A stretch of DNA of 45,531 nucleotides, taken from IMG/VR virus record IMGVR_UViG_3300012096_000009, positions 1 through 45,531 of that record. One strand, 5' to 3'. Both the position numbers and the translations under genes were made by a program. Below are positions 742 to 35,031 of the stretch, piece after piece (position 1 is the first letter of the stretch; every line of letters begins with the position of its first letter). The stretch is from a virus. Below the pieces are notes generated by a model that worked only from the letters and a program-made list of their open reading frames with translations, had not been told where the DNA came from and searched no databases.

Positions 742-744
742 TAC

Positions 745-773: not shown

Positions 774-794
774 TAAGGCATTGCAATGCTCCAT

Positions 795-827
795 GTCGTT
801 ACTGTTACTTTTGTTAACAATAGCGAC
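795..827 (+). other. leader hairpin
   Basis: A 13-position stem (795-807 with 815-827) has one G-U pair and one mismatch around a 7-base loop, inside the leader of the 870 gene. No T-run follows, so it is not a simple terminator. It may stabilise the mRNA or control translation. Its 3' arm contains GTTAAC and the segment 802-818 is a degraded version of the GTTAAC dyad found elsewhere. Confidence 0.45.
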
Positions 828-869
828 ACGAAGCAAACCCCAAATAAACTCAACTAAGGAGACTCAAAA

Positions 870-1367: not shown

Positions 1368-1392
1368 CCACGACCTTTGCACCATGTCAAGT

Positions 1393-1606: not shown

Positions 1607-1619
1607 CAGAGGAGGCATT

Positions 1620-2392: not shown

Positions 2393-2571
2393 ACTTCAAT
2401 GACAGATTCATCGACAGTGGACTCTTCGAAGGTCTTTATCGCTCTGCGTATCGCTGCATGACTTGTGGAGCAGTTATAGAAGATACACGGCGGCATGAAG
2501 AGTGGCATCAAAAGCTTGAGGCTCAAAGACCAGAGCCTCCAAAGGACTTCGACTTCAACGTCGAGAAGTAA
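2389..2571 (+). CDS. small C2H2-like zinc-finger protein
   Basis: This 60-residue protein has CMTCG near residues 23-27 and two histidines about 12 and 16 residues later (HEEWH), a possible C2-H2 zinc site. It starts at the ATG of an ATGA overlap with the J-domain gene, so the two are probably coupled. The function is unknown. Confidence 0.65.
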   Translation: MNFNDRFIDSGLFEGLYRSAYRCMTCGAVIEDTRRHEEWHQKLEAQRPEPPKDFDFNVEK

Positions 2572-2585
2572 AGGAGATAAAAGCT

Positions 2586-3152: not shown

Positions 3153-3164
3153 AAATACAAAATG
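3143..3164 (+). other. perfect 9-bp hairpin carrying the amber codon of the vWA gene
   Basis: CATTTTGTA (3143-3151) and TACAAAATG (3156-3164) are perfect reverse complements around a GAAA tetraloop. The TAG stop (3150-3152) straddles the stem-loop junction and the ATG at 3162 closes the stem. No T-run follows. GGCATT occurs in frame on both sides (3141 and 3168). It could govern readthrough, bypass or re-initiation, or be chance. Confidence 0.5.
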
Positions 3165-3383
3165 ATGGGCATTCCCATCGACTGTGTCCACATTGGCGAC
3201 AGCCAAGGCGGTGAAGAGTTGCTTCGCAGAATCGCGAAGGAAACCGGAGGCATCTACTTGAAGTTCACCGACGTCGGTGCGTTCGCAATAGCGTTCGCTT
3301 ATCTAACCCCAGGCTATCGAGCGATGCTTACTCAAGGCAAAGTGTCGGCAAAGGAGCTTGGCGCGAAGGAGATAAACAAGTGA
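3162..3383 (+). CDS. vWA-domain protein, C-terminal part
   Basis: This 73-residue frame directly continues the vWA frame after the amber codon. It contains the strand and helix expected at the end of the domain (GIPIDCVHIGDSQGG, then LLRRIAKETGGIY). Without it the upstream fold lacks its last strand and helix. A separate product could start from ATG 3162 or 3165 by re-initiation, but no Shine-Dalgarno is evident, only the hairpin. One continuous protein of about 265 residues read through the TAG is the alternative. Its stop overlaps the next GTG start. Confidence 0.6.
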   Translation: MMGIPIDCVHIGDSQGGEELLRRIAKETGGIYLKFTDVGAFAIAFAYLTPGYRAMLTQGKVSAKELGAKEINK

Positions 3384-3631
3384 GAACACCACTTCTCGAA
3401 AACTTGCTCGAAGAAATCGTCCAAGAAATCGGACGAGCGAAGCGAAAACATCCCGACTGTCCGACGCTTCACCACGCAATCGCGGTCATTCGAGAAGAGT
3501 ATCTCGAACTTGAGCACGAAATCTTCGTTGACAACAAAGACCGTGCCGCGATTGACAAAGAAGCGATTCAGCTAGCCGCTACATGCATTCGACTCATCAT
3601 GGATGTCAATTTAGATTCGAGGGAAGGCTAA
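3380..3631 (+). CDS. MazG-like all-alpha NTP pyrophosphohydrolase (probable)
   Basis: This 83-residue, wholly helical protein has the pattern of MazG/dUTPase-like pyrophosphatases: EEYLELEHE (about 39-47), then a second helix (KEAIQLAATCIRLI). The paired acidic residues would bind magnesium. The family hydrolyses nucleoside triphosphates, and phage versions may adjust nucleotide or ppGpp pools. It is short and the second ExxD site is not clear, so the enzyme call is moderate. The GTG start overlaps the vWA stop (GTGA), and the stop overlaps the FtsK start (TAATG). Confidence 0.6.
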   Translation: MRTPLLENLLEEIVQEIGRAKRKHPDCPTLHHAIAVIREEYLELEHEIFVDNKDRAAIDKEAIQLAATCIRLIMDVNLDSREG

Positions 3632-4755
3632 TGGGCAACGTCGTTCCAATTACCTCCACCGAAGACGAATACCAACGCTCCGTCGTCATGGTACTTCAAC
3701 ACAAGCTCACGACGCTCGGTATCGCGGCTCGGTTCGTTGAGCCTATATCCGTAGGACCGATTGTAAGCGTATATCGCTTCCTACCGATAGGCTCGTCCCG
3801 AGTGTCACAACTCGAAGGACTAGCCGAGGACTTTGCCATTACGCTCGGTGTTGAGGACGTGTTCGTGAAGAGGATGCCAGGCGAAAGCGCCGTAGGCATC
3901 TTCGTGCCGAACAAAGAGCGTAAATGGGTTCACTGGCGCGACCTTTGTACTCTGCCAACGGCGGGATGGCATATACCGCTCTTCCTCGGCATCGACTTCC
4001 TCGGACGCGTCGTACACGAAGAGCTTACGCTAATGCCTCACCTACTAATAGCGGGCTCGACAGGCTCTGGCAAGTCGACCTTACTCAATAGCATAATAGC
4101 TTCGCTTATACTCAACATGCCGTCGACCGACTTACAGCTTGCTCTAAGCGACATCAAAGGCGTCGAGTGGGTTCATTTCGACGACTCGAAGCACCTTTTC
4201 CGTCGCAGAGCGACCTCGATAAACGAGTCTTTGCTTCTGTTCGACGACCTTATCGTAGAGATGGAAGCGCGTTTGAAACTCTTCAGCAAAGGAGGTCACC
4301 GTAACATCCTTGAGTATAACTCAGCAACAGCCTATGCTAAAAAGCCGTACATTTGTCTGCTTATCGACGAGTTGTTTGATATTCTTGTCAACCGCGCTCA
4401 GTACGAAGAAGGTTCTCGTGATACTGTCGGTAAAGTCGCCTCGTCTAAGCTTGCGAGCCTCGCTGCAAAGGCTCGGGCTACCGGCATACACATCATCGCG
4501 TCGACTCAACGCCCAAGCGTCAAACTTGTTGAGGGTGACATTAAGGCGAACTTTCCCGCGAGGATTACCTTCAGGTTGCCAAGCGAAGCTGATAGTCGTA
4601 CCGTACTCGGCACCTCTGGAGCAGAGCATTTGCTCAGCCGTGGAGACATGCTCTGTATCAACCCGAATAAACCCGGCATTCAGCGTATTCACGCACCACT
4701 TGCGGACCTTAAGGACATCAAAGCGGCGCTCGAATATGCAACAAGGAGAATTTGA
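3631..4755 (+). CDS. FtsK/SpoIIIE-type DNA translocase
   Basis: This 374-residue protein has the FtsK motor core. Walker A is GSTGSGKST (142-150), Walker B is LLIDE (243-247), and the RATGIHIIASTQRPS block is characteristic of FtsK/SpoIIIE. The N-terminal 120 residues resemble the alpha subdomain, and no membrane segments or gamma DNA-reading domain are seen. It is expected to pump double-stranded DNA as a hexamer. The packaging motor is a separate gene (43542-45239), so this one may act in replication, segregation or DNA entry. I chose ATG 3631 (TAATG overlap) over an upstream in-frame ATG buried in the previous gene. Confidence 0.88.
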   Translation: MGNVVPITSTEDEYQRSVVMVLQHKLTTLGIAARFVEPISVGPIVSVYRFLPIGSSRVSQLEGLAEDFAITLGVEDVFVKRMPGESAVGIFVPNKERKWVHWRDLCTLPTAGWHIPLFLGIDFLGRVVHEELTLMPHLLIAGSTGSGKSTLLNSIIASLILNMPSTDLQLALSDIKGVEWVHFDDSKHLFRRRATSINESLLLFDDLIVEMEARLKLFSKGGHRNILEYNSATAYAKKPYICLLIDELFDILVNRAQYEEGSRDTVGKVASSKLASLAAKARATGIHIIASTQRPSVKLVEGDIKANFPARITFRLPSEADSRTVLGTSGAEHLLSRGDMLCINPNKPGIQRIHAPLADLKDIKAALEYATRRI

Positions 4756-4761
4756 GTTCAA

Positions 4762-4911
4762 ATGAAACTTGTACTCTACTTGACGCTTCCGATTAGACTT
4801 GCCCTCTACGTTTTGGTTTTCGTTGCAGTCGGGATACTCTTTCCTACGCAATGGAAGGAAGACTACAAAAGTTTCTGGCACTTTCTCGTGCTCGCTGACG
4901 ATAAATGGTGA
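4762..4911 (+). CDS. small single-pass membrane protein
   Basis: This 49-residue frame starts 6 bases after the FtsK stop. The Shine-Dalgarno AAGGAGA lies about 13 bases upstream, at the end of the FtsK gene. Residues 3-28 are hydrophobic (LVLYLTLPIRLALYVLVFVA) and the tail is Trp/Lys-rich. Its position suggests a membrane partner for the soluble FtsK-like motor, but that is only inference. A longer antisense frame in the same place lacks a ribosome site. Confidence 0.55.
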   Translation: MKLVLYLTLPIRLALYVLVFVAVGILFPTQWKEDYKSFWHFLVLADDKW

Positions 4912-4927
4912 CTAGCACAGTCGCTAC

Positions 4928-4980
4928 GTACTAGTACCCTATTTTCCTTGCAAGTACTTGAAAACAAACAAGATGTTTGT
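4928..4980 (+). promoter_or_regulatory. cluster of three palindromes, candidate operator
   Basis: Three perfect palindromes stand just upstream of the promoter at 4983: GTACTAGTAC (4928-4937), CAAGTACTTG (4951-4960) and ACAAACA-AGA-TGTTTGT (4964-4980). AGTACTTGA and ACAAACAAG recur around the promoter at 745-773, suggesting one regulator for both. The ribbon-helix-helix-like product of the adjacent gene is the natural candidate. Confidence 0.6.
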
Positions 4981-4982
4981 GC

Positions 4983-5012
4983 TTGACAGTTACTAACCGC
5001 TTGTGGTACGAT
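4983..5012 (+). promoter_or_regulatory. sigma70-like promoter giving a leaderless mRNA
   Basis: The -35 TTGACA (4983-4988) and -10 TACGAT (5007-5012) have an 18-base spacer. The ATG at 5018 lies five bases after the -10, so the expected start site falls on or next to the start codon. No Shine-Dalgarno is present. Confidence 0.7.
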
Positions 5013-5017
5013 TGCCC

Positions 5018-5179
5018 ATGCCACTGAACCCGAAGCTCTTCACCATTGTTAGCTTCCCGCTTCGCCGCGATTTACACGAAAAGCTCAAAAAGATGTTCCC
5101 TCACTATGGAGACACGTCGAAGATTCTTCGACAGCTTGTTGAGGGAGTTCTTAGCGGTCGAATTAAAGTTAAATCCTAA
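5018..5179 (+). CDS. ribbon-helix-helix-like DNA-binding protein
   Basis: This 53-residue protein reads as an Arc/CopG-type fold: a short strand (KLFTIVSFPL), a helix (RRDLHEKLKKMF), a turn, and a second helix (TSKILRQLVEGVLSG). Such proteins are dimers that insert a two-stranded ribbon into the major groove and usually repress. It starts at an ATG with no ribosome site, directly after the -10, hence leaderless translation. The palindromes at 4928-4980 are its probable targets, giving autoregulation and perhaps control of the 745 promoter. The fold call is by eye. Confidence 0.6.
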   Translation: MPLNPKLFTIVSFPLRRDLHEKLKKMFPHYGDTSKILRQLVEGVLSGRIKVKS

Positions 5180-21334: not shown

Positions 21335-22063
21335 CTATCTCCTTCCGCCCCACATCGAAGACCTATAAACTGGACGCAAAGCCGCTTCGGTTCGTTGATT
21401 CTCCATTGTGCGACGCTTTTTACGACCGTAGATAAGCCCAGGCTTCTCGGGGTGCTTTGGGTCGCCGTAGAGGAGTATATGAACCTTTTGAGCCTTCTCA
21501 AACTCGAGATACTCCATGAACCCGCGCTCGACCGCGGCCCAAATGAGTACCTCGTTCCAATCACGGGGGATAAGGATTTGAGTCTGATTAAGCTGAGCAT
21601 CGTTAATCGGGTGCTGTCTGAGCATTCTTGTCTGAATTTGATAAGCCTTGTCAGGAACAGGGGTAAAGCCAATCGTGTCAGAAAAGCGATACCATTCTGT
21701 CGGTAAACTGAACGTGGGCTGAAAGTTATCAGCCTTTTGATAATGCGACATAATAAGCTTCCGACGTACTGAGTTCGTTGGTGGGTCTTGCCAGATGAGA
21801 ATGTCTAGAGTCGCGACGTTGTAGTCGCCAGCAGGCACGATATTTGTTTCGTTATACTCTTGAGTCTGAGGAACAAGATTAAATTTAGTTCCATACTCTT
21901 CGAGTTGGTCGAACTCATCACGAAAATCAGGGTTGCTCGTTATTTCGAGCAAAGCATCACGAAGCCATATATCGGTACGACCAACGTCAGTAGTCTTGTT
22001 CTCGCAGCGAAGCAAGACCTCCTGCTCCAACTGTTGAATCGTAAATATAATAGGAAGAGGCAT
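21335..22063 (-). CDS. head-tail adaptor-like protein
   Basis: This 242-residue protein matches the pattern of podophage adaptor or tail-tube proteins: an N-terminal helix (IQQLEQEVLLRCENKT), a strand region (YNVATLDILIWQDPP), FSLPTEWYRFSDTIGFTPVPD, then a long helix (DWNEVLIWAAVERGFMEYLE). Such proteins form a ring below the portal. It is separated from the portal by some 18 kb and overlaps the gene before it by one base. Confidence 0.6.
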   Translation of the reverse strand: MPLPIIFTIQQLEQEVLLRCENKTTDVGRTDIWLRDALLEITSNPDFRDEFDQLEEYGTKFNLVPQTQEYNETNIVPAGDYNVATLDILIWQDPPTNSVRRKLIMSHYQKADNFQPTFSLPTEWYRFSDTIGFTPVPDKAYQIQTRMLRQHPINDAQLNQTQILIPRDWNEVLIWAAVERGFMEYLEFEKAQKVHILLYGDPKHPEKPGLIYGRKKRRTMENQRTEAALRPVYRSSMWGGRR

Positions 22064-25000
22064 TAAAAGCTCCTCGCGAACATAGTCGTTGCCGGCGCGG
22101 GAGGTCCCGTTGGCGTCGCCGCAAGCGTAAGCACATCGGGACTCGTCGCTGTGTTATCGAATATTTGTACTTGTCCAGTAGAAACACCAACTGTTGGGGA
22201 AAAGATCGCCTGGAACGTGCACGACGCATTGATGGCCAGCGTGAAGCCGGTTCCAGGAATTAATGTCGTGATGGTAGTTGGCGACCCACAAGTATTATTG
22301 ATTAGCGTATATTGCGAATTTATGACGCTGATGGAGGTTGCAGTGAGCGTCGAAGCACCGCTATTCGTGACTGTCACAGTAATCGGGTTGCTAGTCAGTC
22401 CAATTGGTACTTGCCCGAAAGCTACGGAAGACGGAGTATAATTCAAAACTGGCAAGGGCGGATTCGAGTAGCACAGCGTTGCATCGAAAGCGAGCGGTGA
22501 ACCAGTTCCATCTGGCGACATTCCCATCACGGTCAGGGCACAAGTTACGGCTGGAATTGCATTGACGTGGCCGCCCCACGCGGAGGCTGTGAAGCCGTGG
22601 CTGCCACATTGTACGTTATTAAGCGCTGGGAGGCCGTTAAACTGGCCAGCGACGTTCAGCGAGCCCGAGCATTGGCCGATAGTGCCGCTTGATATGTCGG
22701 GACCGATAGCCGGGAAAGCATTTGTGCCGAACCATGATGGTGCGCTGCTGAGGAAGAACGATGCCGGAAGTGCTGCTCCAGTATCTCCCTTTGTCGGCAC
22801 AGGATTCGCATAGAGAAGCGCAGCCGTTGGAACTTCGGAAGTGCTCGCGCAAGTTGTAACCCATCCAGTGTCGCTGGAGTTGCCGCACCACCTGACCGCC
22901 GCCGTCACCACGTCGTAATTGCCCCAGAGCATGGCCGATGAACTAGCGAGCGTATCTACTGGCACAACTCCGCTGGATGTGCCGAGCGTCACTGTGATTT
23001 TGTTGCTGCCTGCAGTGCTCTTATAAACGTTGTTGAAGCCGTTTGTGCCTAGCGCGTTCGCAACGATGTTGTCGTAGCGGTTGAAGGCGTCCACTTGAAT
23101 AGCGTTCGTAGCCGAATCCTTCACCGATGCTCCACACTGGCCATTCGCGCATGATTCCCAACTGGTGAAATGGTTCCGATAAGCCGTATCCACGCGGTTT
23201 GTTCCGTGGTTGACATCCATCCACCAACGATTCGTGACGTTGCCCTCAAAGAGATTGAAAGTACCGCCGTCACCGTGATGCCTGAAACCGTCACCCATTA
23301 GGTCGGTGTTGTTGAGCATATTGATAACGAAGTTGTAGGCTTTAACTGTCGAGGTGATAGCCTGCTCGTTGTGCACTGCTTCCGGGAAACCTTGAATAAT
23401 ATTGTTAACTTCTAGAGCGTGACCGATATTCGCGTCTGAGATTCCATGCATCGCTGGAGAGGCTGTCTGGCTAAACGCACAGTAATTACTAATTAACGTA
23501 ACATGATCAGTATCACTGTTGCTAAGGCAGAATTGCTGTGAGTTAATGACCCTCACGCCAGACACCCAACTATTTATAGCCCCTGATACACTTACTTCGT
23601 TTGTGGGGCTGGCTCCAAGTCCACTTGAATCTACAGACAGATTTTCAATCCCCACCTTGGATAAAGGCGCTGTAATGAATTGCGCGTGAGGCGTTTGGCC
23701 CGGATTCCAGTTTGGCGCGGCAATAGGGTCTTGCAGCGTGATGGTTGTGCCGCTGATTCCAGTAACGATGAACTTCTCTTGTTGCCAACGGAAGGTCTGC
23801 GTCCCGGATGGTCCATTTACCGAAGCTCCATTTGGGGCGGCGTATTGCGTTGTGGCGTTGTATAGCTGTCCGTTATCAGTGGATGTTCCAGCGCAAGTAT
23901 CCGCAGTCGTGCCGTCATCGCATTGGTCGAGACGAATTAGTGAACCGACAACCACACCACTGGGAACGCTAGCCACCTTTATCTTCGTAGCGCCTTGCGC
24001 GTAGCCGTTCGTCCATTCAACGAAGGATGTGTAGCTAGTTGAGCCGGGGATTGTAATCTTCTTGCCACCGGACGCACCACTGGTAAAGACAAGAAAGGTC
24101 GAGTTCGCGCCGCCACCACGCAAGGCCACATTGTTCTTATTCACCGTGATTTGCGAGCTGAGATTGAATGTCCCGCTGCCTAGCAAGACAAACTGATTGA
24201 CTCCACACGCAGAGATTGCCGTGTTAATCGTCGCGGCTGTTCCTGTATAGGGGGCAATTGTTGAGCCACACTGCGTCCATGTAGACGATGGAATGCCGCC
24301 CGTGACGCCAGCCGTTGTCCAATCATAAGCGCGTGTCGGGGCAAGTACTCCAGTCGAGAGCAGCGAAGCGTCTCCGCAGGCAATCTCGCTTGTAGCACCC
24401 TCCTTGACGATAATATTATCCCAGCCAATGGCATGACCTGAGCCCGATGCTTCCGCTTCCGCTCCGGTAATGCCTACGATAAGAAGGCCCGGTTGATTCG
24501 TCGGATGCGCAGTTGAAACCTGCTGCGTCCCGATGAGGGTACAAGTAGAGTCATAGACGCTCATCGTATAAACGGAGCCAACTTTGTAGAGCATCGAAAC
24601 GAATACCGGCTGATTACCATGAAAAGTAACTCCAGCTGTTGTGAAGCTGACGCCGCTACCTTGCGTTTCCAGCTTCAAGAGGCCATTCAAATGCAACAGC
24701 GTCATGAACTCCGTACCGCCACCCCAGAAAATACTCAGATTCGATTCTTGATGCCCTGCGTCTCCAGTAGAATCCCAATTAGCATTAAACATGAATGCAG
24801 CCGCTACGCTATTCGTAGCTGTAATTCCGCTATAAGAGCAGGTCGGGAAAGGGCTGGCTGCTCGGAGCGTGTATTGCAAGCCAGTTGTACCGCCGCCAGC
24901 GAACTTCGTTCCTGCCGCCGCCTGTAGGCCCGGAAAGGGCATCTGGAACGATTGTGAGTGGAGAAAATCGGAACCGAGATTTGAGCAACCTGCCCATGCT

Positions 25001-25140
25001 CCTGTTCCCGTTCCGTTGGCTCCAAGAGCAATCGTGGTATTGCCAATCGCCGTTCCATTCGTTGAGCCGTCGAAGGTCTGGAAGGAATCCTGCGCGAGGC
25101 ATGGTAGCACGATAAGAAACATTAGGAGGAGTTTTTTCAT
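22063..25140 (-). CDS. secreted-type pectate-lyase-like beta-helix protein with choice-of-anchor-D domain
   Basis: This 1025-residue protein begins with a signal-peptide-like segment (KKLLLMFLIVLPCLA, then QDS). Residues 20-260 are beta-rich, like a concanavalin/LamG jelly roll. About 290-650 resembles a right-handed beta-helix of the pectate lyase type (FVLLGSGTFNLSSQITV; NNVALRGGGANST). The C-terminus (about 905-1010) is a choice-of-anchor-D/HYDIN-like Ig domain (YTPSSVAFGQVPIG; CTFQAIFSP). Many cysteines suggest an extracytoplasmic origin. It may be a tailspike depolymerase or a secreted enzyme. ATG 25140 overlaps the upstream stop (ATGA). Confidence 0.72.
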   Translation of the reverse strand: MKKLLLMFLIVLPCLAQDSFQTFDGSTNGTAIGNTTIALGANGTGTGAWAGCSNLGSDFLHSQSFQMPFPGLQAAAGTKFAGGGTTGLQYTLRAASPFPTCSYSGITATNSVAAAFMFNANWDSTGDAGHQESNLSIFWGGGTEFMTLLHLNGLLKLETQGSGVSFTTAGVTFHGNQPVFVSMLYKVGSVYTMSVYDSTCTLIGTQQVSTAHPTNQPGLLIVGITGAEAEASGSGHAIGWDNIIVKEGATSEIACGDASLLSTGVLAPTRAYDWTTAGVTGGIPSSTWTQCGSTIAPYTGTAATINTAISACGVNQFVLLGSGTFNLSSQITVNKNNVALRGGGANSTFLVFTSGASGGKKITIPGSTSYTSFVEWTNGYAQGATKIKVASVPSGVVVGSLIRLDQCDDGTTADTCAGTSTDNGQLYNATTQYAAPNGASVNGPSGTQTFRWQQEKFIVTGISGTTITLQDPIAAPNWNPGQTPHAQFITAPLSKVGIENLSVDSSGLGASPTNEVSVSGAINSWVSGVRVINSQQFCLSNSDTDHVTLISNYCAFSQTASPAMHGISDANIGHALEVNNIIQGFPEAVHNEQAITSTVKAYNFVINMLNNTDLMGDGFRHHGDGGTFNLFEGNVTNRWWMDVNHGTNRVDTAYRNHFTSWESCANGQCGASVKDSATNAIQVDAFNRYDNIVANALGTNGFNNVYKSTAGSNKITVTLGTSSGVVPVDTLASSSAMLWGNYDVVTAAVRWCGNSSDTGWVTTCASTSEVPTAALLYANPVPTKGDTGAALPASFFLSSAPSWFGTNAFPAIGPDISSGTIGQCSGSLNVAGQFNGLPALNNVQCGSHGFTASAWGGHVNAIPAVTCALTVMGMSPDGTGSPLAFDATLCYSNPPLPVLNYTPSSVAFGQVPIGLTSNPITVTVTNSGASTLTATSISVINSQYTLINNTCGSPTTITTLIPGTGFTLAINASCTFQAIFSPTVGVSTGQVQIFDNTATSPDVLTLAATPTGPPAPATTMFARSF

Positions 25141-25907
25141 GGTCGAATGGCGGCGGCTCCTATAGCTCCGCATTGTTCTGGAGAAGTTGGGAATGTGTAG
25201 CCCATATTCGTGGAACCAATTGCCGATGCGCGGGAGCCAAGCACTGAAGTATTGTTGCCGCCGATGTTTAGGAAACTCTTTACGAGCGTCTGTGTAGATG
25301 CCAGTGAGGTTTGGTGATTGATGGTAAGCTCATCTACAACAATATCGCCAGCTACGGCATTGGAAACTGTCAGGGAAATCGAGCCAGCTATATTACAACC
25401 GGATGCGCCTCCACCAGTGAGACTAGCGGTGAATGCGGAACGATTCGGTGTACTCTGGTTCACTCCCGAAAGGCTTTCGGTGATAAGCGCTGATTGGCCA
25501 TTCGTATTTGTAAAGGAACAAACTACGTTATGCGCTACGCCATCGCCAGTACCAACGGCGAGGATAAACCCTACGCTTCTATAGCCATTAAGCGCCGTTT
25601 CACGGAGATTCCACATCTGCGTCATTGACGTTCCGTTGAATGTGCAGCCGGTGACATCATTCGCGCCGTTGTCCAAGCCAGCAAGAGCCACAACTACCGC
25701 ATTGACGATGGCATTCGTTACGGTATGGGCAGCGGTCAACGAAGAAACACCGGAACCACTCGTTCCTGCTCCAGCTACGTCAAAAGCTACGGAAGTACTG
25801 GGAGGACCACCGCCAATTCCAGCGGTCCCACCGATTCCACCTTTCCCGCCAAGTCCTTGCAGCAGGAGGAACGTGAGTGAATAGATGAGCAAAAAGCGAA
25901 GAATCAT
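25137..25907 (-). CDS. secreted-type Gly-rich beta protein
   Basis: This 256-residue protein starts with a hydrophobic signal-like stretch (ILRFLLIYSLTFLLLQ), followed by a Gly-rich collagen-like linker (GLGGKGGIGGTAGIGGG). A beta-rich domain follows, with paired cysteines (VTGCTFNG; HNVVCSFTN) and recurring Ser/Thr/Asn strands. No catalytic motif is recognised. Both ends overlap neighbours by ATGA, so it is coupled to the fiber upstream and the beta-helix protein downstream. It could be an adhesin or part of the tail. Confidence 0.62.
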   Translation of the reverse strand: MILRFLLIYSLTFLLLQGLGGKGGIGGTAGIGGGPPSTSVAFDVAGAGTSGSGVSSLTAAHTVTNAIVNAVVVALAGLDNGANDVTGCTFNGTSMTQMWNLRETALNGYRSVGFILAVGTGDGVAHNVVCSFTNTNGQSALITESLSGVNQSTPNRSAFTASLTGGGASGCNIAGSISLTVSNAVAGDIVVDELTINHQTSLASTQTLVKSFLNIGGNNTSVLGSRASAIGSTNMGYTFPTSPEQCGAIGAAAIRP

Positions 25908-28900
25908 TGGGCCACGCAGCTTCCTGGAATGATGGTGATGGTACCCGTCCCTGTTGCCGCTGCTTGAAGCTGAATCGTACCCGCATTGGCCCCATTGATG
26001 AGTGTCATCGTGGTGCGCAGTGGGAAATTGGTGGTTATTGTCGGTGTTCCAGCCTCAGATAGCGCCGTGGAAAAGGCTGTCGCCACCGATGCACTCAACG
26101 TAGAGGCTGTTACTTCAGTTGCCAAATCGTAGGTTACCGCTGTGGGGGATGCTGGTCCGGTCCACTGAATCTTCACATCCGCTGTAGTTGCTGATGTCTG
26201 ATAGTCGAGGTCACAGGTTACCTTGTAATTTGTACTGGCCTCGACAGGGAACGAAAGGTTGGTGACGTTCGAGAAGGTTGTTGTTGCGTTCGTATAGTTG
26301 CTGGTTAGAAAGGCCGTCTGCGGCATCTTTGCATACACACAAACCGATGGAGAAGCGTTTGAACAGAGAGCAGCGGAGTTGTTATTAACCGGAGCCGCTG
26401 CGGGCTTGTTTAAAGTGTAGGCCGTCACGGAGGCTGGAGCCTGCTCGCAGATGGAGTTCGCTGTATTGCAAGGTGCCACCGCTGCACTCGTCGTACCTTG
26501 AGGATAGTCAACGAAGCCAGCAGTTGTGCCTGTTGAAGTGAATGCTGGAGCCTTCACACCTCCTGTATCAGTCGTGGTTACGGTAGTGCCGTCATCTGTG
26601 ATGCTGGAATTAGCCTCAAGTACGTTGCTCGATGCGACTACGGATTTGGGAATGATATTGTTGGTCGGAGCCGAAGCGAACACCGCATTTATGGCATCGG
26701 CGTTATTCGCGTAAAGATGCATATTTTTGTTGGTGGAATCGTAGCAAAGCATCGAAGTCGCGCCCGCTGTACATCCAGCCGAGGTTGGAGCCTTCCATGT
26801 TCCCGCCGAAAAGTCCTGTAGGAATGCTCCGTATGTGTTGGCCTGGTCTGTAAAGACTACCGTCGCTGGAAGGTCCGCCTTCCCGATAGACACAAAACTG
26901 GCTGTACCTGTAGCGCCAGCATTGTTGCCCCAAAATTTGTGAGCAAGCGTGGTGGCACAAGGAACTAAAGTTACAGCGCCGGTTGACGAGACGTTGCAGA
27001 ATAATCCTGTATCACCACTGACCGCCGAAACGGACCCTGCTGCTCCACAGCCGAATACTCCAGCCACGATAGTAATAGCTGTCGAACAACTAGCGGGGAA
27101 TGCTTCATAGCTAGGTACTCGGTAGATGAAGTAATCTACTCCATCGGAGAAGTGAGGGGCAACCCAACTAGGAGGAATGTTAATGGAACCACCAAGAGTC
27201 CCATTCATTTTGAATCCACTAGAAGTTTCTGTCACCACCCCAGCCCCGCGATTCCAGATGATATACGGCATGTTGAAACTGAATCCTGTAGTGGAGGGAT
27301 TGACGGCGGTATAGGTCTGTGCCGAACCGTTTGTTGCCGTAATCATCGTCGCACGGTCATTCCAGTAATTTGCCGCGCCGATAGTGTAGGTTGTTCCGAC
27401 CTGTTGGTTTATCGGGATGCCTGGAAGTGGGCAAGTCGGCGCAACGGAAGAGGAAGTAGGCTGCGTGTACCCACAAAGATAATTACCAGCAGCCGTTGGC
27501 GGGTTCGTGCCTTGAAACGACCCTCCCGTTCCAGCGGATTGAAGAGCGTTCACAAGCCCAGAAGAGGAACCGCCAGCGCCACCGCCGAGCCCCAATGCGC
27601 TACAGTTTGTTCCATTACACGATACACGCACTCCCTGATTCGAATTGACCGAGATATTTCCAACAGCCCCGTTCCCCGACAGCGTCCCTGAATCCACCGT
27701 TAAGGTGATAGCTCCGACAGATGGGTTATAAATGTCCCATGTCTGTCCTGCTAGTGCGTGAGGCAAAGTTAAAGTGATTCCCGCTGCAGTGGCATATACG
27801 ACCCCTTCCGAACCAGTGAGCGTGTGATTCACTCCGTAGGAAGCGGTTGCCAAGTTCAAAGCAGGTAGACCGCATCCAGTATAACCTTGAGAATTCCCTA
27901 TATTTTCCTGCCCTGTGCATTGACTTATATCGTGATTAATGCCAACGCTACGAGCGCTGAGCGGCTCCGTGGTGCTAATGGCGATCCCGCCGTTGGGAAC
28001 GTCGCCGCTAATAATCGGCATGGAACTCCCCGGAGCGTCTGATTGATTAATAAATATTGGAGCGCCGATAGAGCCAACTGTGTTCGACTGAACGAACATT
28101 GGAACGCCGCCAGAATCTTGGAAGAAATGCTCAAAATACAGAATCCCTTTAACATTGCCGCTAACAGCGCTGTTCAACGTTATAAGCGGAGTAATCGGTC
28201 CCTGCCACTCCTGTCCCATCTTCATGTCTACATAGAAACCACAAGCATTTGCAGCCGGCTGATTACACTCGTCATAGAATCCACGAAGGCTGCCTCCAAA
28301 ATAGTTGAAATGCCACTCTGCATTATTTTTGCTGATGAATCCTGGTGTGTCGGTAGCTCCGATTACCTGGGTAGGTCCCATTGTCCACGCGGTATTATTA
28401 AATGTTCCGCCAAAGCCTCCTCCCGAGCCAGCATAGGAGTAATACAGAATGCTCATGTAGTCCGTGCTTCCACTGGTTTGAAAGTGGACGTTTTCGGTTG
28501 TTGTGGGGCTACCGCCGTTCGTCGCCTGGAACACAAGCATTTGTCCCGGGCCAAAGGCATCAATGAACAGATTTCGAATAGCGGACCCTGCGCGTTGAAG
28601 GCACGGATTCGCTCCCAGGCAGCGAAGTTCCAATAGACTCTGTTGACCAAAACTCCCAGCTACCATTCTGGCACCATCCTCGTTAGTTCCATTCAAACTG
28701 ACTGCTCCGAGGTTCCATGTTGCCCTGGGGCAAGCAACGCCGCCCAAATTATCAACGAATCCGGTGAACGTTATGTAGCCACTAGTCACGTAGCAGAACG
28801 CATCAGTTCCCGCATTCTCGACTGGAGGAGGAAAGTGGCAGCTACCACCTCCACCCGTTGTCGTCTTTGGAGTTGCAGCGTGGCAGGCATTTAGCGCGTA

Positions 28901-31123
28901 GTCGTTTCCGAAGGCAACCGGAGAAGTAGTAGCGGAGTTCCCTGCGTTGTCCAAAAGAGTAAGAGTGCTACCCGAGATTCCGGTTATCTGCGTGGTGAGC
29001 GAATCGTTTACATTCGTTGCTGGAGGGTTTGTAGGAATGAACCAAGGAACACTACTTCCCGGAGCCAACGTCTGCGTCATCGTCGTGCCAAAATCGTCCC
29101 ATGTGTTATAGGTCGCATCTGTGTAGCCGAGATTGGCCGGGTATCCTGCGTAGACAAGTGAAAAGTTCGCGGCGTTCGCTGGCAAGGCACACGACGCCCC
29201 AATGCAGCGCCATACTATCCATTGCCACATATTCGTTCCCGCTGGCAACGTGGGGAACGTCAGATGGTTCCCCACATAATAGTGAAGATTCCCCCCAGTT
29301 GCGGTGGTACTGCTCATGAAGTATCGGCTGTCCAGAGTACTCAGGTATGTCAGAGTGGTTCCGCTCGCAACTGTGAAGTGATGATAGCCACCAAATTCAG
29401 AATTGTCGCTAGTGCCGTCGATAAGTCCCCAGAATCCAGAAGCTAATCCGGTAGTCGAGCCAACCGTAACCGTCACCACGTTGCTCCCAACGGCAATGGC
29501 CTGACTTGTTACCGCAAGCGTCTTTGACCCCATCGCGTCGTTCGAGTTTGCGACGGTCACAACTGGGCTAGCCGCTGTATAGCAATTTCCTTTACTTACA
29601 GCGCTTATTGCGTAGGAAACAGAAGTCGAGCCAGTTCCACCAGCAACCATCCATCCTGTCCCAGTAGAAGATGACGCCAGAGATGGAACCGCTATAGGAG
29701 CCGTGGGCGCTGTCGCACAGTTCGTTGCGCCCATGTTGAGTCCGACAATGCCATCGTTCTTTAGAAAGTTAGAAGAACTGGCAACAACAAGCGAGTTTGT
29801 ACCAACCGTTATCGTTCCCGTAGTGGACGGAATGACATTTGGGTTTACCACTCGGGCATAAAACGGTGGAGCGGTAATATCCACCCCAAGATTCGGCCCA
29901 CGATTAGTTACTTGTCCGTTTAGAGCCGATGTACCACTGACAGTTGCATTGCCATTAACTGTCGAATTGCCGTTTATAGTCGTAGTCTCATTTACAGTCA
30001 AGGCACCACCAGATTCTACAACGCTCGTAGACTGACAACCGCCGGCCGTTCCTGCGGCTTGAATAGTTCCCTGAGCTCCGCACGAAGATTGTAAAGGAGC
30101 CGTATTTGCTACTGTAACCCCACCAGCACCGTCAGCCGTCAATGAAATTCCGCCCGCTGCGATTAAATTCAAAATTGACTGAACTGTATTCGCGACCCCG
30201 TTAGTTTCAAGAAGCGCTCCACCAGCACTCCCTAAGCCACCCCACGAAGTGCAATTCGTTCCAGTCGACACAAGACACTGTCTTGTAGTACCTGTCGTTA
30301 TATTGTAATAGATTCCTCCACGAGAAGCACTCACCTCAACGTCAGTATAAGCTACAGCAAGCAAAGTCCCATCGACAAGAAGTGTAGGCGGTGTTATCAC
30401 TAACGAAGTTGCACTCGTTACTGTCGTAAACTGCGTAAAGCAGTTGTTCTTTGCCGTCGTAATACTACAAACAATGATTCTCCACTGAGACTGCGCTGGT
30501 AGAATTACAACGTTTTGCGTCATCGTTATTGTAGCCGAACCAGAGCCATCAAGATTCCCCAACTGATTTTGATTCGGAACTGGAGTTTGAGTTCCAACAA
30601 GGAAGAAAGGAGGTCCGAACGGTGTCACCCCAGGAGGAGTTACTAACGTAGCCGACCACGTGCCATTGTTCCAACTCTGTCCGCCAGTGTCAGTAACTTG
30701 GATTGTCAGGTTTGTCGTCTGTGCATTTGCAAACGAAGCTACAAGAAACAAAACGAAGCAGACGACAAAGAGCCTCAAAACAGCACTCGCGACTGAGGCT
30801 CGAAGTGTTATCTGAGTCTTTGTCGCTGCTATACTTCCGGTATAAACATCACAAGCTCTGTCTTTGACCATCACCCAGTACCCCACAGGAAATCTCTGCA
30901 AGTTGTGGTTCACGGTAAAATCCGTATTCGGTGCAACAGGAGCAACTACGTTAATCCAATTTCCGGCAATGTTGTCTGTATTCGTACCATCACCGAAGCC
31001 TAAGTTACCGTTTACGACACGAACCAAATTTTGATAGACTTGACGAAGCATTTCGATAAACTTCTTCAAAGAGTCCTTTGAAGGCTCGACTGTCGTAAAA
31101 TCGAGGTTAGGCTTTGCTTGCAT
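25904..31123 (-). CDS. giant tail fiber with phage anchor domain and internal signal-like segment
   Basis: In this 1739-residue protein residues 1-112 match a common short phage tail protein (NLGFGDGTNTDNIAGNWI; DRACDVYTGS; ITLRASVAS). Directly after, residues 115-134 (LRLFVVCFVLFLVASFANA) look like a secretion signal with an ANA cleavage site. The rest is Ser/Thr/Gly/Asn-rich, with Cys pairs, repeats like NGNSTVNGNATVSG (about 383-396), and possible beta-helix and Ig-like regions. It appears to be a phage anchor fused to a host-type exported adhesin. Gene order supports receptor binding. Confidence 0.75.
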   Translation of the reverse strand: MQAKPNLDFTTVEPSKDSLKKFIEMLRQVYQNLVRVVNGNLGFGDGTNTDNIAGNWINVVAPVAPNTDFTVNHNLQRFPVGYWVMVKDRACDVYTGSIAATKTQITLRASVASAVLRLFVVCFVLFLVASFANAQTTNLTIQVTDTGGQSWNNGTWSATLVTPPGVTPFGPPFFLVGTQTPVPNQNQLGNLDGSGSATITMTQNVVILPAQSQWRIIVCSITTAKNNCFTQFTTVTSATSLVITPPTLLVDGTLLAVAYTDVEVSASRGGIYYNITTGTTRQCLVSTGTNCTSWGGLGSAGGALLETNGVANTVQSILNLIAAGGISLTADGAGGVTVANTAPLQSSCGAQGTIQAAGTAGGCQSTSVVESGGALTVNETTTINGNSTVNGNATVSGTSALNGQVTNRGPNLGVDITAPPFYARVVNPNVIPSTTGTITVGTNSLVVASSSNFLKNDGIVGLNMGATNCATAPTAPIAVPSLASSSTGTGWMVAGGTGSTSVSYAISAVSKGNCYTAASPVVTVANSNDAMGSKTLAVTSQAIAVGSNVVTVTVGSTTGLASGFWGLIDGTSDNSEFGGYHHFTVASGTTLTYLSTLDSRYFMSSTTATGGNLHYYVGNHLTFPTLPAGTNMWQWIVWRCIGASCALPANAANFSLVYAGYPANLGYTDATYNTWDDFGTTMTQTLAPGSSVPWFIPTNPPATNVNDSLTTQITGISGSTLTLLDNAGNSATTSPVAFGNDYALNACHAATPKTTTGGGGSCHFPPPVENAGTDAFCYVTSGYITFTGFVDNLGGVACPRATWNLGAVSLNGTNEDGARMVAGSFGQQSLLELRCLGANPCLQRAGSAIRNLFIDAFGPGQMLVFQATNGGSPTTTENVHFQTSGSTDYMSILYYSYAGSGGGFGGTFNNTAWTMGPTQVIGATDTPGFISKNNAEWHFNYFGGSLRGFYDECNQPAANACGFYVDMKMGQEWQGPITPLITLNSAVSGNVKGILYFEHFFQDSGGVPMFVQSNTVGSIGAPIFINQSDAPGSSMPIISGDVPNGGIAISTTEPLSARSVGINHDISQCTGQENIGNSQGYTGCGLPALNLATASYGVNHTLTGSEGVVYATAAGITLTLPHALAGQTWDIYNPSVGAITLTVDSGTLSGNGAVGNISVNSNQGVRVSCNGTNCSALGLGGGAGGSSSGLVNALQSAGTGGSFQGTNPPTAAGNYLCGYTQPTSSSVAPTCPLPGIPINQQVGTTYTIGAANYWNDRATMITATNGSAQTYTAVNPSTTGFSFNMPYIIWNRGAGVVTETSSGFKMNGTLGGSINIPPSWVAPHFSDGVDYFIYRVPSYEAFPASCSTAITIVAGVFGCGAAGSVSAVSGDTGLFCNVSSTGAVTLVPCATTLAHKFWGNNAGATGTASFVSIGKADLPATVVFTDQANTYGAFLQDFSAGTWKAPTSAGCTAGATSMLCYDSTNKNMHLYANNADAINAVFASAPTNNIIPKSVVASSNVLEANSSITDDGTTVTTTDTGGVKAPAFTSTGTTAGFVDYPQGTTSAAVAPCNTANSICEQAPASVTAYTLNKPAAAPVNNNSAALCSNASPSVCVYAKMPQTAFLTSNYTNATTTFSNVTNLSFPVEASTNYKVTCDLDYQTSATTADVKIQWTGPASPTAVTYDLATEVTASTLSASVATAFSTALSEAGTPTITTNFPLRTTMTLINGANAGTIQLQAAATGTGTITIIPGSCVAQ
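30722..30781 (-). other. internal signal-peptide-like segment in the fiber gene
   Basis: These 20 codons encode a hydrophobic run of about 15 residues ending in ANA before Gln, typical of a signal peptidase I site. It follows an Arg (LRLF) that could be the end of an n-region. A TTG codon at its start could in principle initiate, but no ribosome site is visible. Confidence 0.6.
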
Positions 31124-32706
31124 CAGTTCTCCAAGAGGCCTCCACGCTGTTCTCCCCCAACGTCGTATATTGGAGCAAGCTCGACAAGTGCGGTTGGACT
31201 TCCGGGTGGTACGGACACGATATACTGAAACCTCAAACCTGGCATATTGAACTCTTGTACGTAGTTTAGAACATCGCCAGAGCCACTTCCTACCGTAAAG
31301 GAGTGAGCCTCGGTTTGGCCCTTCTGATTCGTCAACGTAATCGTAAACGTCGTTGAGCCAAGGTCGAGGAAGGAAAGACGATATTTCTTGACAGTCTTAC
31401 TGTGTCGACGATCGCCGAAGATAAGCCTTCCCGAGGTAATCGACGCGGCTATTTCTGAGTAGTTCGTAAAGTCGATGTAACCTGGTGTGCCGTCACTAAA
31501 GCCGAGCAAAAGACCCTCGAAGGGGTTATTAGCTTGAAGCGTTAGCGGTGTCCAACTTTGGGCTTGAATCGTTCCGATAAGGTCGATAATACGAATAGCT
31601 GAGTTTTTGAAGAAGTTGCCCAAAGACACAATCTTCTTGTTATACGTGAAGCGAGTCCAGTTGCTTTCGTCGTAGTTGTAAACCCAAACACTGACGTTGG
31701 GTATGACAAGCCAATAGGCTTTGAAGACTTGTCCATTAACCGAGTAAGTATTAAAGCCGTAAATCGTCAGTGGATTTACGGCTTGCACATCGTTGAGAAT
31801 TCGAGAGCGAGCTCCGAGGCGTCTACGACCGTCGATAGGCATATCGCCGATTGGAGTCACCGAGGAGCCATCGAAGATGTAGACGTTGTCGACGCCGAGG
31901 TAAGTAGCCAGCTCGCTTCCTTTGTCATCGAAGTGGTCGAGGCTATAGGGAGCTATTGTCCCTTGAGTCGCATTGATAATAGGAACAAAATCGAATGGAC
32001 GAAGTCCTATTCCAGTCGGGATGATTTGTAGAATCCCGAACTGGTGAAAGCCACAACCGTACTGACCAATCTTGATGATGCCATTAATCGGACCGAGGTT
32101 GTTGACGTTGTCGTTAAGACCTGAGGTAAGACTAGTCCAATCGATTGGGTCGCCTATTCCAGACCAGATATAACGCTGAGGGAAGAGCGAGTTCACAGCG
32201 ATTAGATGCAAACCAATCTCAGCTATGTATAACGCCGGAGGTGCTGTTGCAACTTGAGTGTAAATAGCCGCGACACCGTCCCAGACAAAGATTTTGTCCA
32301 GACCTTGCGAGAAACAAAGTTGGTAATTAAGCACATCCCAAGAGAAGAGCTGAGCCGAGCTCCCAGAAAAAGCTGGTCCGGTGATTACAGTCCAGGCTCC
32401 ATTAAAGAATTGAATAAGTCTTGTTGCGGTGATAATACACTGAATATGAGTTCCTTGAATGTTAAAGAAATCTGCGACGGCCAGAATAGCCTCGTTTGCC
32501 GGTGCGGGGAGGGGAACTAAAGCTGTCCACCCCGGTCGAACGTAAGCCGCTCCTTTTCTGAAAAGGAAGTTATTGACATCGGCAAAGCCATAGGCTTCGA
32601 TCTCCGTAGGAGGAAGCTCGCTTTGAATTCCACCGAAAGGTCCGGTCAAAGAAGCCTCGTAAAGCTCCTCGGAGCGCGTCTGCTCGCGCTGTTGAAATGG
32701 TGGCAT
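31123..32706 (-). CDS. tail hub / stabilization-type beta-propeller protein
   Basis: This 527-residue protein has the strand-rich repetitive build of podophage tail hub or P22 stabilization-like proteins: GAAYVRPGWTAL near the start, repeated blades such as LFSWDVLNYQLCFSQGLDKIFVWDG and YIWSGIGDPIDWTS, and a C-terminal GGEQRGGL. Proteins of this type close the portal channel and carry fibers. Its start overlaps the upstream stop by one base and the giant fiber follows immediately. Confidence 0.72.
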   Translation of the reverse strand: MPPFQQREQTRSEELYEASLTGPFGGIQSELPPTEIEAYGFADVNNFLFRKGAAYVRPGWTALVPLPAPANEAILAVADFFNIQGTHIQCIITATRLIQFFNGAWTVITGPAFSGSSAQLFSWDVLNYQLCFSQGLDKIFVWDGVAAIYTQVATAPPALYIAEIGLHLIAVNSLFPQRYIWSGIGDPIDWTSLTSGLNDNVNNLGPINGIIKIGQYGCGFHQFGILQIIPTGIGLRPFDFVPIINATQGTIAPYSLDHFDDKGSELATYLGVDNVYIFDGSSVTPIGDMPIDGRRRLGARSRILNDVQAVNPLTIYGFNTYSVNGQVFKAYWLVIPNVSVWVYNYDESNWTRFTYNKKIVSLGNFFKNSAIRIIDLIGTIQAQSWTPLTLQANNPFEGLLLGFSDGTPGYIDFTNYSEIAASITSGRLIFGDRRHSKTVKKYRLSFLDLGSTTFTITLTNQKGQTEAHSFTVGSGSGDVLNYVQEFNMPGLRFQYIVSVPPGSPTALVELAPIYDVGGEQRGGLLEN

Positions 32707-33416
32707 CAGGAACCTATAGTAACGTCAAGAAAATCCGAGGTAATATTAAAACCTGTTTGACTTCCACTAATGTTAGACTTAACAGTAATAGCTCCAGCTA
32801 TCGCCTCCGTCGGTGACAAAAAACCACCGGACATTAGTGGCGGGTTAGAGTTTTGGTAAGTAATAGCAAAAGACTTCTCGATAGCCGCCGCTGTGACAAA
32901 AACAGTAGCATCATAGTAAATATCGGCGCCGACTCCGCCAAAAGTTGATACTACTATACTAGTAGCTCCAAAGAATAGATTCAGCCCCGGATTTCCCGTA
33001 CCGATACCATTGATATGCCAATGAGCTCTAATTCTCGCGACAGAGCCTACTAGAAGAGTTCCGCCGGGAATTATTACCGACTGACCGTTACCGTTCGCTA
33101 AGAGGTTGACTGGAACGACATTGGATATATGAAACGGAGAAGTCCCAAAAATGATACTAACCCAGGCTCCGCCGTTCCATTGAAATGTTTGAGCCGTGTC
33201 AGTCGCGATATAAATAAGACCGAAACCAGCTCCACCCCACGTCGCGTTTACGGACTCAGGCGTCGGACGGTTAGCAAGCGTGCCACTGAGCAACGACATC
33301 CTCTGCATAACGTCGTCTTTAAGATTACGCAAGTCCTGACCCAACAAGTTGGCAAGTTGAGTATCTGGGGGAGTCGTAATATCCCAAACATTGTCGAAGA
33401 CTGGAGGAAACGCCAT
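32706..33416 (-). CDS. tail appendage protein
   Basis: This 236-residue protein begins with a pattern frequent in phage tail appendages (VWDITTPPDTQLANLLGQDL, then a helix with KDDVMQRM). It continues with a beta-sandwich-like body rich in Gly, Ser and Val (VIIPGGTLLVGSVARIRAHW). It probably sits on the tail hub or is a short fiber. Exact one-base junctions on both sides suggest coupled translation. Confidence 0.6.
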   Translation of the reverse strand: MAFPPVFDNVWDITTPPDTQLANLLGQDLRNLKDDVMQRMSLLSGTLANRPTPESVNATWGGAGFGLIYIATDTAQTFQWNGGAWVSIIFGTSPFHISNVVPVNLLANGNGQSVIIPGGTLLVGSVARIRAHWHINGIGTGNPGLNLFFGATSIVVSTFGGVGADIYYDATVFVTAAAIEKSFAITYQNSNPPLMSGGFLSPTEAIAGAITVKSNISGSQTGFNITSDFLDVTIGS

Positions 33417-34690
33417 CAGAGCACCAACTCCCCTTCAACGACTTTTAGAAGCTCTTTGAAGTCTTTCAAACAAACCTCAGCGAGGTCGGTCCGATACTGT
33501 AGTCCTGGGGCTCGAAGCCTCTTTACTATCTTGTACGCTTGAGCGAATGCCGACTCGATCGAGTCGCCACAACCATTGACGACCCCCACTATTCCCACCC
33601 CTACGCTGCTTTTTAACACGTCGTCTTCGAGCATTACTCCGTAGGGGTAGAAGCATTCTTTGTCCTTCTCCTTAAAGCCCTGAATGCAAACACCGGCGTC
33701 GTTGTGAAACTTCTCGTTGGGCCACGGTGGGAGGCTCAACCTCACTCCAGCCCCAAAGCCTTCATTAAGGACGAAGTCGCCAGACTGCCCACGAGCAAGA
33801 GTGTCAATAAAGCTGCCAAAGTCGAAATCAACAAGGCTGTACAAAAGCGTTGGAAACGCGTCGTACCCGAAGCGGGGGGTAAATTCGAGCCCATAAATAC
33901 CTTCTTCATTGACCACACAGTTGACATCGATAGCTCCGACATAGCGATGCTTGCGCATCACTTCTGTTAACTTTGTTAACGTTTCTGTCACCAAAGGGTC
34001 TTTCGAGTCGCAGGACCAAACTACGTTCCCTGTGCAGCCTCCCGAGGGGCCGAGGTCGCCGTTGAGGAAATGTTTTCGCTCAATCGTGTGATTGAACATA
34101 CCAGGAAGCCATTCCTCACCATTGAACCAACCCTCGGTCGACACGGCGACGCCTTCGATAAACTCCTGAACTGTAAGCTCGACCTCGTGCGTACCGCACT
34201 CGTGCTTGAACTGCTCAATCATAGATAGAGCATCTTCGGCGTCTGTTGCAACGTAGGAAGGGACGACTCCGCTCAGCGACCCCTCTGGTTTCAGAACGAC
34301 CTTTCCAGACCGTTCAGCAAACTTTTGGGCTTGCTTTGTAGCGTCGTCCCAGGACTTTACTGACACAGAGTCAGGTGTGTCAATACCGACGTCGTGCATA
34401 ACCTCCTCTGCGTATTTTCGGTCCGTTTCGAGCCTGTCGGCAAAAGCTCCTCCACCAAAGATAGGAACTCCCGCATCGCGAAAGGTTTCGATAACGGAGC
34501 CGAAGCTCGTACAATCGGCTATAACGGTCTGGCCGAACTGGTACTCCGAAGCGTAATCGACCAAGCCAAAGCCTTGATGCTCGAAGATTGGGTCGAATAT
34601 CTTCACCTTGACGTCATGGCCTTCGGCTTTAAGCCGCACGGCGAGGCCAACACCGTCACCGCAATCCGATAGTATCAAGAAGCGACTCAT
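33416..34690 (-). CDS. PurD-like ATP-grasp ligase
   Basis: This 424-residue protein resembles phosphoribosylamine-glycine ligase: an N-terminal Rossmann segment (FLILSDCGDGVGLAVRL), an ATP-grasp fold with KVVLKPEG and VQEFIEGVAVSTEGW, and GLEFTPRFGYDA near the ligand site. PurD adds glycine to phosphoribosylamine in purine synthesis. Placed among tail genes it may instead modify a virion or wall component, but that is inference. A GTTAAC dyad lies in the coding region (33966-33980). Its start overlaps the peptidase stop (ATGA). Confidence 0.75.
   Translation of the reverse strand: MSRFLILSDCGDGVGLAVRLKAEGHDVKVKIFDPIFEHQGFGLVDYASEYQFGQTVIADCTSFGSVIETFRDAGVPIFGGGAFADRLETDRKYAEEVMHDVGIDTPDSVSVKSWDDATKQAQKFAERSGKVVLKPEGSLSGVVPSYVATDAEDALSMIEQFKHECGTHEVELTVQEFIEGVAVSTEGWFNGEEWLPGMFNHTIERKHFLNGDLGPSGGCTGNVVWSCDSKDPLVTETLTKLTEVMRKHRYVGAIDVNCVVNEEGIYGLEFTPRFGYDAFPTLLYSLVDFDFGSFIDTLARGQSGDFVLNEGFGAGVRLSLPPWPNEKFHNDAGVCIQGFKEKDKECFYPYGVMLEDDVLKSSVGVGIVGVVNGCGDSIESAFAQAYKIVKRLRAPGLQYRTDLAEVCLKDFKELLKVVEGELVL
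33965..33981. repeat. GTTAAC-N3-GTTAAC dyad, copy in the PurD-like gene
   Basis: GTTAAC (33966-33971), TTT, GTTAAC (33975-33980), flanked by CT and G as in the copies near 5272 and 38455. Confidence 0.7.
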
Positions 34691-35031
34691 AGCTCGGGTG
34701 GGTACGTAGTTCCTTTCTTTACCTGAACGTGAATGTGTTCGTTGTCCGTGTCTGGGTCTTCGAGAAAAGCATAGAAGCTTGACTCTCCTAAAGCTCCTTT
34801 AAAACGAACGAGAAACGCGAGCTTGTCTGGCAAATCATGCGACCGCACGTCGTAGGCTTCGCCTCGGTGATGTGGGTCGTTTGGGCCGCTGTGCTCGCCG
34901 TCGCAGGCCGAGGTTATCGTCACGTCGAAAGGAAGAGCCTCGACAAGAGCAGTCAAAGCCATCAAGATGTGAAAGCCGCCTGTGGCTATCTTAGTAAACT
35001 CGACGCCGGGTTTGACACGAATGACGCCCAT
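34687..35031 (-). CDS. M15-type D,D-peptidase-like protein, candidate endolysin
   Basis: This 114-residue protein carries the metallopeptidase motif HxxGxAxD (H54, G57, A59, D61, in HHRGEAYD) and a second zinc-ligand region HIH (H99, H101). M15 enzymes cut peptidoglycan cross-links. It is short and has no signal peptide or binding domain, so it could be a cytoplasmic endolysin needing a holin, or a virion peptidase. A membrane-anchored small protein is encoded two genes upstream. Confidence 0.72.
   Translation of the reverse strand: MGVIRVKPGVEFTKIATGGFHILMALTALVEALPFDVTITSACDGEHSGPNDPHHRGEAYDVRSHDLPDKLAFLVRFKGALGESSFYAFLEDPDTDNEHIHVQVKKGTTYPPEL

Follow-up and report, generated by a model that had tools for sequence, protein, structure and literature searches.

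A soil phage and several other Acidobacteriota or Acidobacteriota-linked phages, one of them cultured, carry export signals on their fibre and tailspike genes, which suggests that these proteins are exported and fold outside the cytoplasm. The soil phage is the IMG/VR virus record IMGVR_UViG_3300012096_000009, which was analysed over its whole 45.5 kb (45,531 nucleotides; hereafter the window). It encodes a terminase and an SU10-like portal (Pfam and PHROG searches), and a minus-strand block of head and tail genes includes the three genes in question: the giant fibre P0001, P0002 and P0003 (Table 1), coupled by ATGA overlaps at 25904-25907 (P0001/P0002) and 25137-25140 (P0002/P0003), just as an earlier note made from the sequence alone had described them. 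The bodies of the three proteins consist to 41-47% of Ser, Thr, Gly and Asn and contain 1.7-2.2% Cys. That note had also seen signal-like segments in all three products; they are present in P0001 and P0003, and P0002 is only weakly signal-like. Conserved signal features and an enrichment in cysteine were observed directly in these genes and their relatives. For the whole route that they point to, Sec export, cleavage, folding outside the cytoplasm and joining of the virions at lysis, we estimate a probability of about 0.52.

In the giant fibre, residues 114-134 (AVLRLFVVCFVLFLVASFANA), ending in ANA↓QTT (arrow, predicted cleavage site), lie between a 113-residue N-terminal domain and the body. 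Hydrophobicity in the protein has one strong peak only, the segment at 30722-30781 (15-residue mean 2.98; next 1.84), a value reached in 7 of 1000 composition shuffles. A single-query search with the adjoining P0004 returned L002 as the only relative, with the same fusion and a different core (VVMMLLCLLGFTAKA↓QTT), and the fusion was identified in 26 related contigs by scanning with alignments of P0004 and the P0001 N-terminal region, the 113-residue domain being conserved in all of them; many of the related contigs are fragments. Alignment A4, comprising 21 rows of fused fibres, contains 20 distinct signal segments without a single charged residue in 253 h-region positions (21 sequences), and a small residue followed by an invariant Gln at the cleavage site, the motif small-X-small↓Q being kept across the relatives. 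AlphaFold, proposed earlier as a check, placed one helix of about 19 residues (112-130) over the segment, immediately behind the final strand of the N-terminal domain and at modest confidence. This domain is presumed to be the tail-side one; it had no match in Pfam, PHROG or PDB sequences and only weak structural matches to phage proteins, and P0001 as such had no Pfam or PHROG match. In 17 of 21 contigs, matches to the N-terminal query stop close to the predicted cleavage site (between residues 114 and 155) because the body there is a different one. As read from the sequences, many hits covering no more than query residues 1-135, the fibre bodies are swapped at this site. The module A6 at the start of the P0001 body is homologous, signal included, to the beginning of the related phages' stand-alone genes. 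This putatively exported module exists in two contexts, following an ordinary N-terminal signal or lying behind the 113-residue domain, which would yield equivalent N-termini after cleavage.

With respect to Sec and signal peptidase I, an uncharged core and a cleavage site are present in the internal segment of all relatives. The signal of P0003 is N-terminal, whereas 113 residues precede that of the giant fibre, which can therefore only work as an internal signal. Topology would permit such a signal with the N-terminal domain in the cytoplasm, and RodZ-like type II proteins have cytoplasmic domains of such size. The continuous helix would also suit an uncleaved membrane anchor, with virions docking on the inner membrane via the cytoplasmic N-terminal domain and the fibre spanning the periplasm. 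However, every relative retains the A↓Q site, which an anchor would not need and which argues for processing, and the stand-alone genes carry ordinary cleavable signals; we therefore consider an anchor quite improbable. A TTG codon stands exactly at the start of the signal segment in the window and could be taken for an internal start, giving a virion form with the 113-residue domain and a secreted form beginning at the signal peptide. In many relatives this position is TTA, CTA, CTT, CTG, ATT or ATA, and no start codon is conserved there or one codon earlier, excluding a conserved internal start at that position and rendering a dual product very improbable indeed.

P0003, read from the ATG at 25140, begins with a textbook signal peptide, MKKLLLMFLIVLPCLA↓QDS, with KK and a cleavage site. 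A lipobox reading of this start (LPC) was rejected, as Pro at -1 does not fit a lipobox. The hydrophobicity alone is ordinary for the composition of the protein (442 of 1000 shuffles), but the N-terminal position, the KK and the cleavage site together are unusual, because the one fixed signal rule that was used on all genes is passed, outside the cassette, by no more than 5 of 277. Stand-alone genes with textbook signal peptides also follow the fibre gene in the related phages, e.g., MKKLLLVIFLLLLFTFSVHA↓QNT. The rule was passed by 19 of 30 stand-alone cassette genes against the 5 of 277 other genes (Fisher 2e-18, a p value that overstates independence since the phages are related). A basic n-region, an uncharged core and small residues at -3 and -1 occur in P0003 and the stand-alone cassette genes, and P0002 fails in this respect. 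Export of the stand-alone proteins is, by these sequence features, the simplest reading and well supported. A further phage contig, L028, lacks the 113-residue domain, and its tail region contains three signal-peptide genes in a row; the first of them (372-5099) starts with an ordinary N-terminal signal peptide and shares with the window's giant fibre a body stretch of 135 columns at 50% identity. Three consecutive signal-peptide genes were also found beside a lysin-like gene in the prophage remnant L039, where a copy of A6 with an N-terminal signal peptide is located at L039:13645.

The mature signal-bearing bodies contain on average 2.1% Cys, compared to 0.27% in a small control set of 12 other virion proteins (p=7e-6, approximately eightfold), and the number of cysteines is even in 26 of 34 stand-alone proteins, some of which are near-copies (p=0.0015). 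Even cysteine counts mark exported proteins, and both the content and the even counts fit folding in an oxidising compartment. In addition, Gln occupies +1 in 43 of the 50 listed cleavage sites. Alternatively, there may be no export and the hydrophobic stretches may be structural, e.g., a trimer core, a neck or a membrane-penetrating virion element; in favor of this, the hydrophobicity of P0003 taken alone is ordinary for its composition, and hydrophobic stretches do exist in virion proteins. Against this possibility, which appears decidedly unlikely, stand the Lys/Arg n-regions, the (-3,-1) sites and the +1 Gln, the cysteine enrichment, and a mature N-terminus that matches Met1 of homologues without a signal (see below). 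Gln after predicted cleavage sites is very frequent in Acidobacteriota (L030, L032, L034, L035, L036) and in the phage loci. This Q rule has been reported for Bacteroidetes and their phages and was called a distinctive Bacteroidetes feature (PMC10367356); the Porphyromonas gingivalis phage genes concerned likewise have signal peptides that expose an N-terminal Gln, but are five genes of unknown function that are not stated to be tail fibres (PMC10367356).

In the strongest sister cases, judged from their alignments, a signal peptide has been added to an ordinary phage tailspike head-binding domain. In L039, the first gene encodes a signal peptide and then a domain known from proteobacterial and cyanophage tailspikes, and the same arrangement occurs in the 39-kb phage contig L046, with PDB 7eeq_A, 'Tailspike head-binding domain', as the match of its domain. 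L060 likewise has a signal peptide immediately in front of this domain, and a survey of 80 further contigs yielded L088/L091, L093/L094, L107 and L120; here, automatic calls of the MCRCIMAVITP... type were dropped by eye as start-codon artefacts, and L088/L091 and L120, missed by the rule, were added by eye. Alignment A9 places the mature N-terminus that follows A↓Q opposite Met1 of tailspikes without a signal. The head-binding domain is thus found at the mature N-terminus in the sister phages L046, L039 and L060 and not in the window, where no Pam1-type head-binding domain was detected in the giant fibre. Pam1-type podovirus tailspikes (PDB 7eeq_A, phrog_26190; Xanthomonas phage PBR31, Shewanella phage X14) share the domain with these three sister phages, but the known members begin at the domain, without a signal peptide, and the window's giant fibre has a different, unrecognised N-terminal domain. 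A tree of 7 non-redundant signal-bearing and 66 other head domains requires at least 3 changes of signal state (6.8 when shuffled), and the signal may have a single origin within the family. Its signal-bearing members contain 1.92% Cys versus 0.65% in the others (p=0.001). That phage tail proteins normally lack such signals, as had been assumed beforehand, applied to 12 of 12 cultured-phage tailspikes checked but not to the cassette set described here. Two of the signal-peptide tailspike heads, L039:12693-13640 and L060:9584-10426, are 90% identical and lie in two Acidobacteriota genomes with similar host genes alongside; one copy is followed by two more signal-peptide fibre genes and the other is seemingly cut short.

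Signal peptides were also found in a cultured phage. Tunturi_1 (PP887698; PMC11924767) is a podovirus of Tunturiibacter (Acidobacteriota) whose gp12-gp17 region resembles the cassette in its consecutive tail-region signal-peptide genes with beta-helix and Big-like domains; signal peptides occur on gp12, gp13, gp14, gp16 and gp17, and in Tunturi_2 on the same genes. Gp14 is annotated as tail spike and gp17, which has a beta-helix and carbohydrate-enzyme-associated domains, as virion structural protein. Gp14 has no direct sequence similarity to P0003.

The AlphaFold model of P0003, for which 11 relatives were included and which is of moderate confidence in the core only, has a right-handed beta-helix core with the fold of tailspikes and polysaccharide lyases, as in podovirus tailspikes. 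Its PDB matches, 4ru5, 9k4a, 4ru4 and 7w1c (E 2e-10 to 1e-8), are phage tailspikes and capsule depolymerases. The modelled beta-helix relates P0003 to tailspikes and polysaccharide depolymerases, and P0003 may be such an enzyme. Its relatives comprise one distant phage gene (L028, 27% by tblastn) and genes on eight contigs, all Acidobacteriota; most of the cellular relatives have a signal peptide and many adjoin exopolysaccharide genes. Pfam-checked neighbours are a Wzy-type O-antigen ligase (L029, L033, L035), a flippase (L033, L035) and an asparagine-synthase-like amidotransferase (L033), and L030, L032 and L036 have neighbours with similar N-termini. Plasmids contained no relative of P0003, and named phage records contained none of P0001, P0003, P0004, the fibres of two relatives or the L028 giant protein.

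The search of Acidobacteriota genomes that the earlier note had proposed returned cellular relatives for the P0003 beta-helix, while A6 was found in only 2 of 396 genomes, as a strong match in the prophage remnant L039 and a weak one in a cellular gene; apart from these, the N-terminal module of the giant fibre was confined to phage contigs. No provirus of this phage group was found among 84,980 genomes. Since cellular homologues with a signal peptide outside prophages exist for the P0003 beta-helix alone and the sister cases are tailspike heads plus a signal, host exoproteins captured whole find no support as a general explanation. The companion proposal, an exported adhesin or depolymerase set, is well supported by the conserved cassette signal peptides, the Cys-rich bodies, the fold of P0003 and its relatives in exopolysaccharide loci. 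The host of the window phage is probably a member of the Acidobacteriota, as suggested by the prophage remnants and by the genomes in which cellular relatives of P0003 occur.

The same loci would be compatible with proteins that are exported without being virion parts, i.e., free depolymerases or adhesins secreted late in infection that loosen host exopolysaccharide, aid release or block superinfection: the cellular relatives of P0003 are secreted proteins encoded beside O-antigen ligase/polymerase, flippase and amidotransferase genes (partly Pfam-checked). An exopolysaccharide cluster of Pantoea stewartii likewise encodes an exported enzyme with a tailspike fold, WceF (PMC7949094), although WceF is a bacterial gene product with a Tat signal from outside any phage tail operon. 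We regard such free products as unlikely, as the exported proteins of the sister phages retain the tailspike head-binding domain, the annotation of Tunturi_1 gp14 is tail spike and that of gp17 virion structural protein, and the body of the giant fibre continues a domain that belongs to the tail cluster.

In the favored reading, export and attachment to virions, the cassette between two conserved tail genes would encode receptor-binding or depolymerase fibres routed through the host Sec system. The stand-alone genes, P0003 and the second fibre gene in relatives, would provide ordinary cleavable signal peptides. The N-terminal domain of the giant fibre would stay cytoplasmic while its body is translocated via the internal signal and cut by signal peptidase I at A↓Q, leaving a mature N-terminus that matches those of the stand-alone fibres. 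The bodies would then fold outside the cytoplasm with disulfides and, once the cell lyses, attach to virions or work on polysaccharide in the vicinity. The steps that we infer are export itself, cleavage, the formation of disulfides and virion attachment at lysis; the bodies probably end on virions, given the head-binding domain in sister phages and the position of the genes.

Several points weigh against this reading. Cleavage would separate the body of the giant fibre from the 113-residue domain, and attachment would need another contact. The signal calls derive from a home-made rule and not from SignalP. Even Cys counts in the fused bodies (12 of 18, p=0.12) are not significant. Tunturi_3 and Tunturi_4 had no signal peptides on the tail genes checked, indicating a trait of phage lineages that is not required by the host phylum, and the paper describing these phages is silent, in its main text, on signal peptides and on virion proteomics results (PMC11924767). 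Finally, P0002 is unconvincing as a signal-bearing protein: its N-terminus (MILRFLLIYSLTFLLLQG) is hydrophobic but fails the signal rule and has no A-X-A site, and the hydrophobicity is within chance (218 of 1000 composition shuffles). No relative was found against which this N-terminus could be checked, P0002 had no Pfam match and only a weak PHROG match of unknown function (E 0.02), and it has no similarity to the second L028 gene, of which it had been considered a homologue.

In the usual view, the cytoplasm is where tailed phages fold and attach their tail fibres. Virions of some tailed phages of Acidobacteriota may instead be completed outside it, with Sec export and periplasmic oxidation of tailspikes and fibres and their addition only at lysis, to which we give somewhat less than an even chance; if true, tailed phages would have a way of assembly that has not been described for them and that arose or spread in several lineages. 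The conserved signal peptides in uncultured phages and a cultured isolate predict the use of host secretion for receptor-binding proteins, which would imply disulfide-bonded fibres, a route for module exchange with secreted bacterial proteins, and a possible reason for the poor annotation of soil-phage fibres; the prediction is directly testable on Tunturi_1. No report of signal peptides on tail fibres was found in the literature searched, which mostly did not extend to subscription journals. Target proteins of phage diversity-generating retroelements are reported to lack signal peptides (PMC6199706). In the MAT fibres of Bdellovibrio, adhesins that resemble phage fibres, the signal peptide is followed immediately by an N-terminal beta domain, but these fibres are encoded and used by a predatory bacterium, not a phage (PMC10769870).

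Table 1. Features of the tail cassette and its borders in the window.
Feature	Position	Strand	Basis or remark
P0001, giant fibre, 1739 aa	25904..31123	-	N-terminal domain, internal signal segment and body
P0001 N-terminal domain, aa 1-113	30785..31123	-	Alignment A4; AlphaFold helix 16-37, strands up to residue 110
P0001 internal signal-peptide-like segment, aa 114-134, site ANA↓Q	30722..30784	-	Hydrophobicity, alignment A4, AlphaFold helix 112-130
P0001 module A6, aa 135-305	30209..30721	-	Homologous to N-terminus of related phages' stand-alone signal-peptide fibre genes
P0001 body module, aa 1228-1359	27047..27442	-	50% identity to L028:372-5099
P0002, 256 aa, hydrophobic N-terminus, signal peptide uncertain	25137..25907	-	
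P0003, 1025 aa counted from ATGA start, predicted exported beta-helix protein	22063..25140	-	
P0003 signal peptide, MKKLLLMFLIVLPCLA↓Q	25093..25140	-	
P0003 right-handed beta-helix core	23161..24273	-	AlphaFold with 11 relatives; closest PDB structures are phage tailspikes/depolymerases, lowest E 2e-10
P0003 C-terminal HYDIN/VesB Ig-like domain, weak	22189..22452	-	Pfam, below cut-off
P0004, conserved virion structural protein, phrog_3287	31123..32706	-	Upstream border of cassette
P0005, conserved tail protein, phrog_10775, E 1e-4	21335..22063	-	Downstream border of cassette

Some related contigs have small extra signal-peptide proteins after the fibre genes (L004:16500-17247, L007:16064-16819, L013:13783-14004); the one checked, L004:16500-16940, had no Pfam match. 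In two others, small genes that by eye resemble homing/HNH endonucleases interrupt the tail block at different places (L014:9215-9520, L017:6524-6991). The virion gene block of the window also encodes a GARS-type (phosphoribosylglycinamide synthetase) ATP-grasp protein at 33416-34690 (-), and similar genes occupy the same place in the related contigs L002, L008, L009, L010 and L013. A 114-residue protein encoded at 34687-35031 (-), without Pfam or PHROG match, has the pattern CDGEHSGPNDPHHRGEAYDVR ... HIHVQ and resembles an M15-type peptidase/endolysin.

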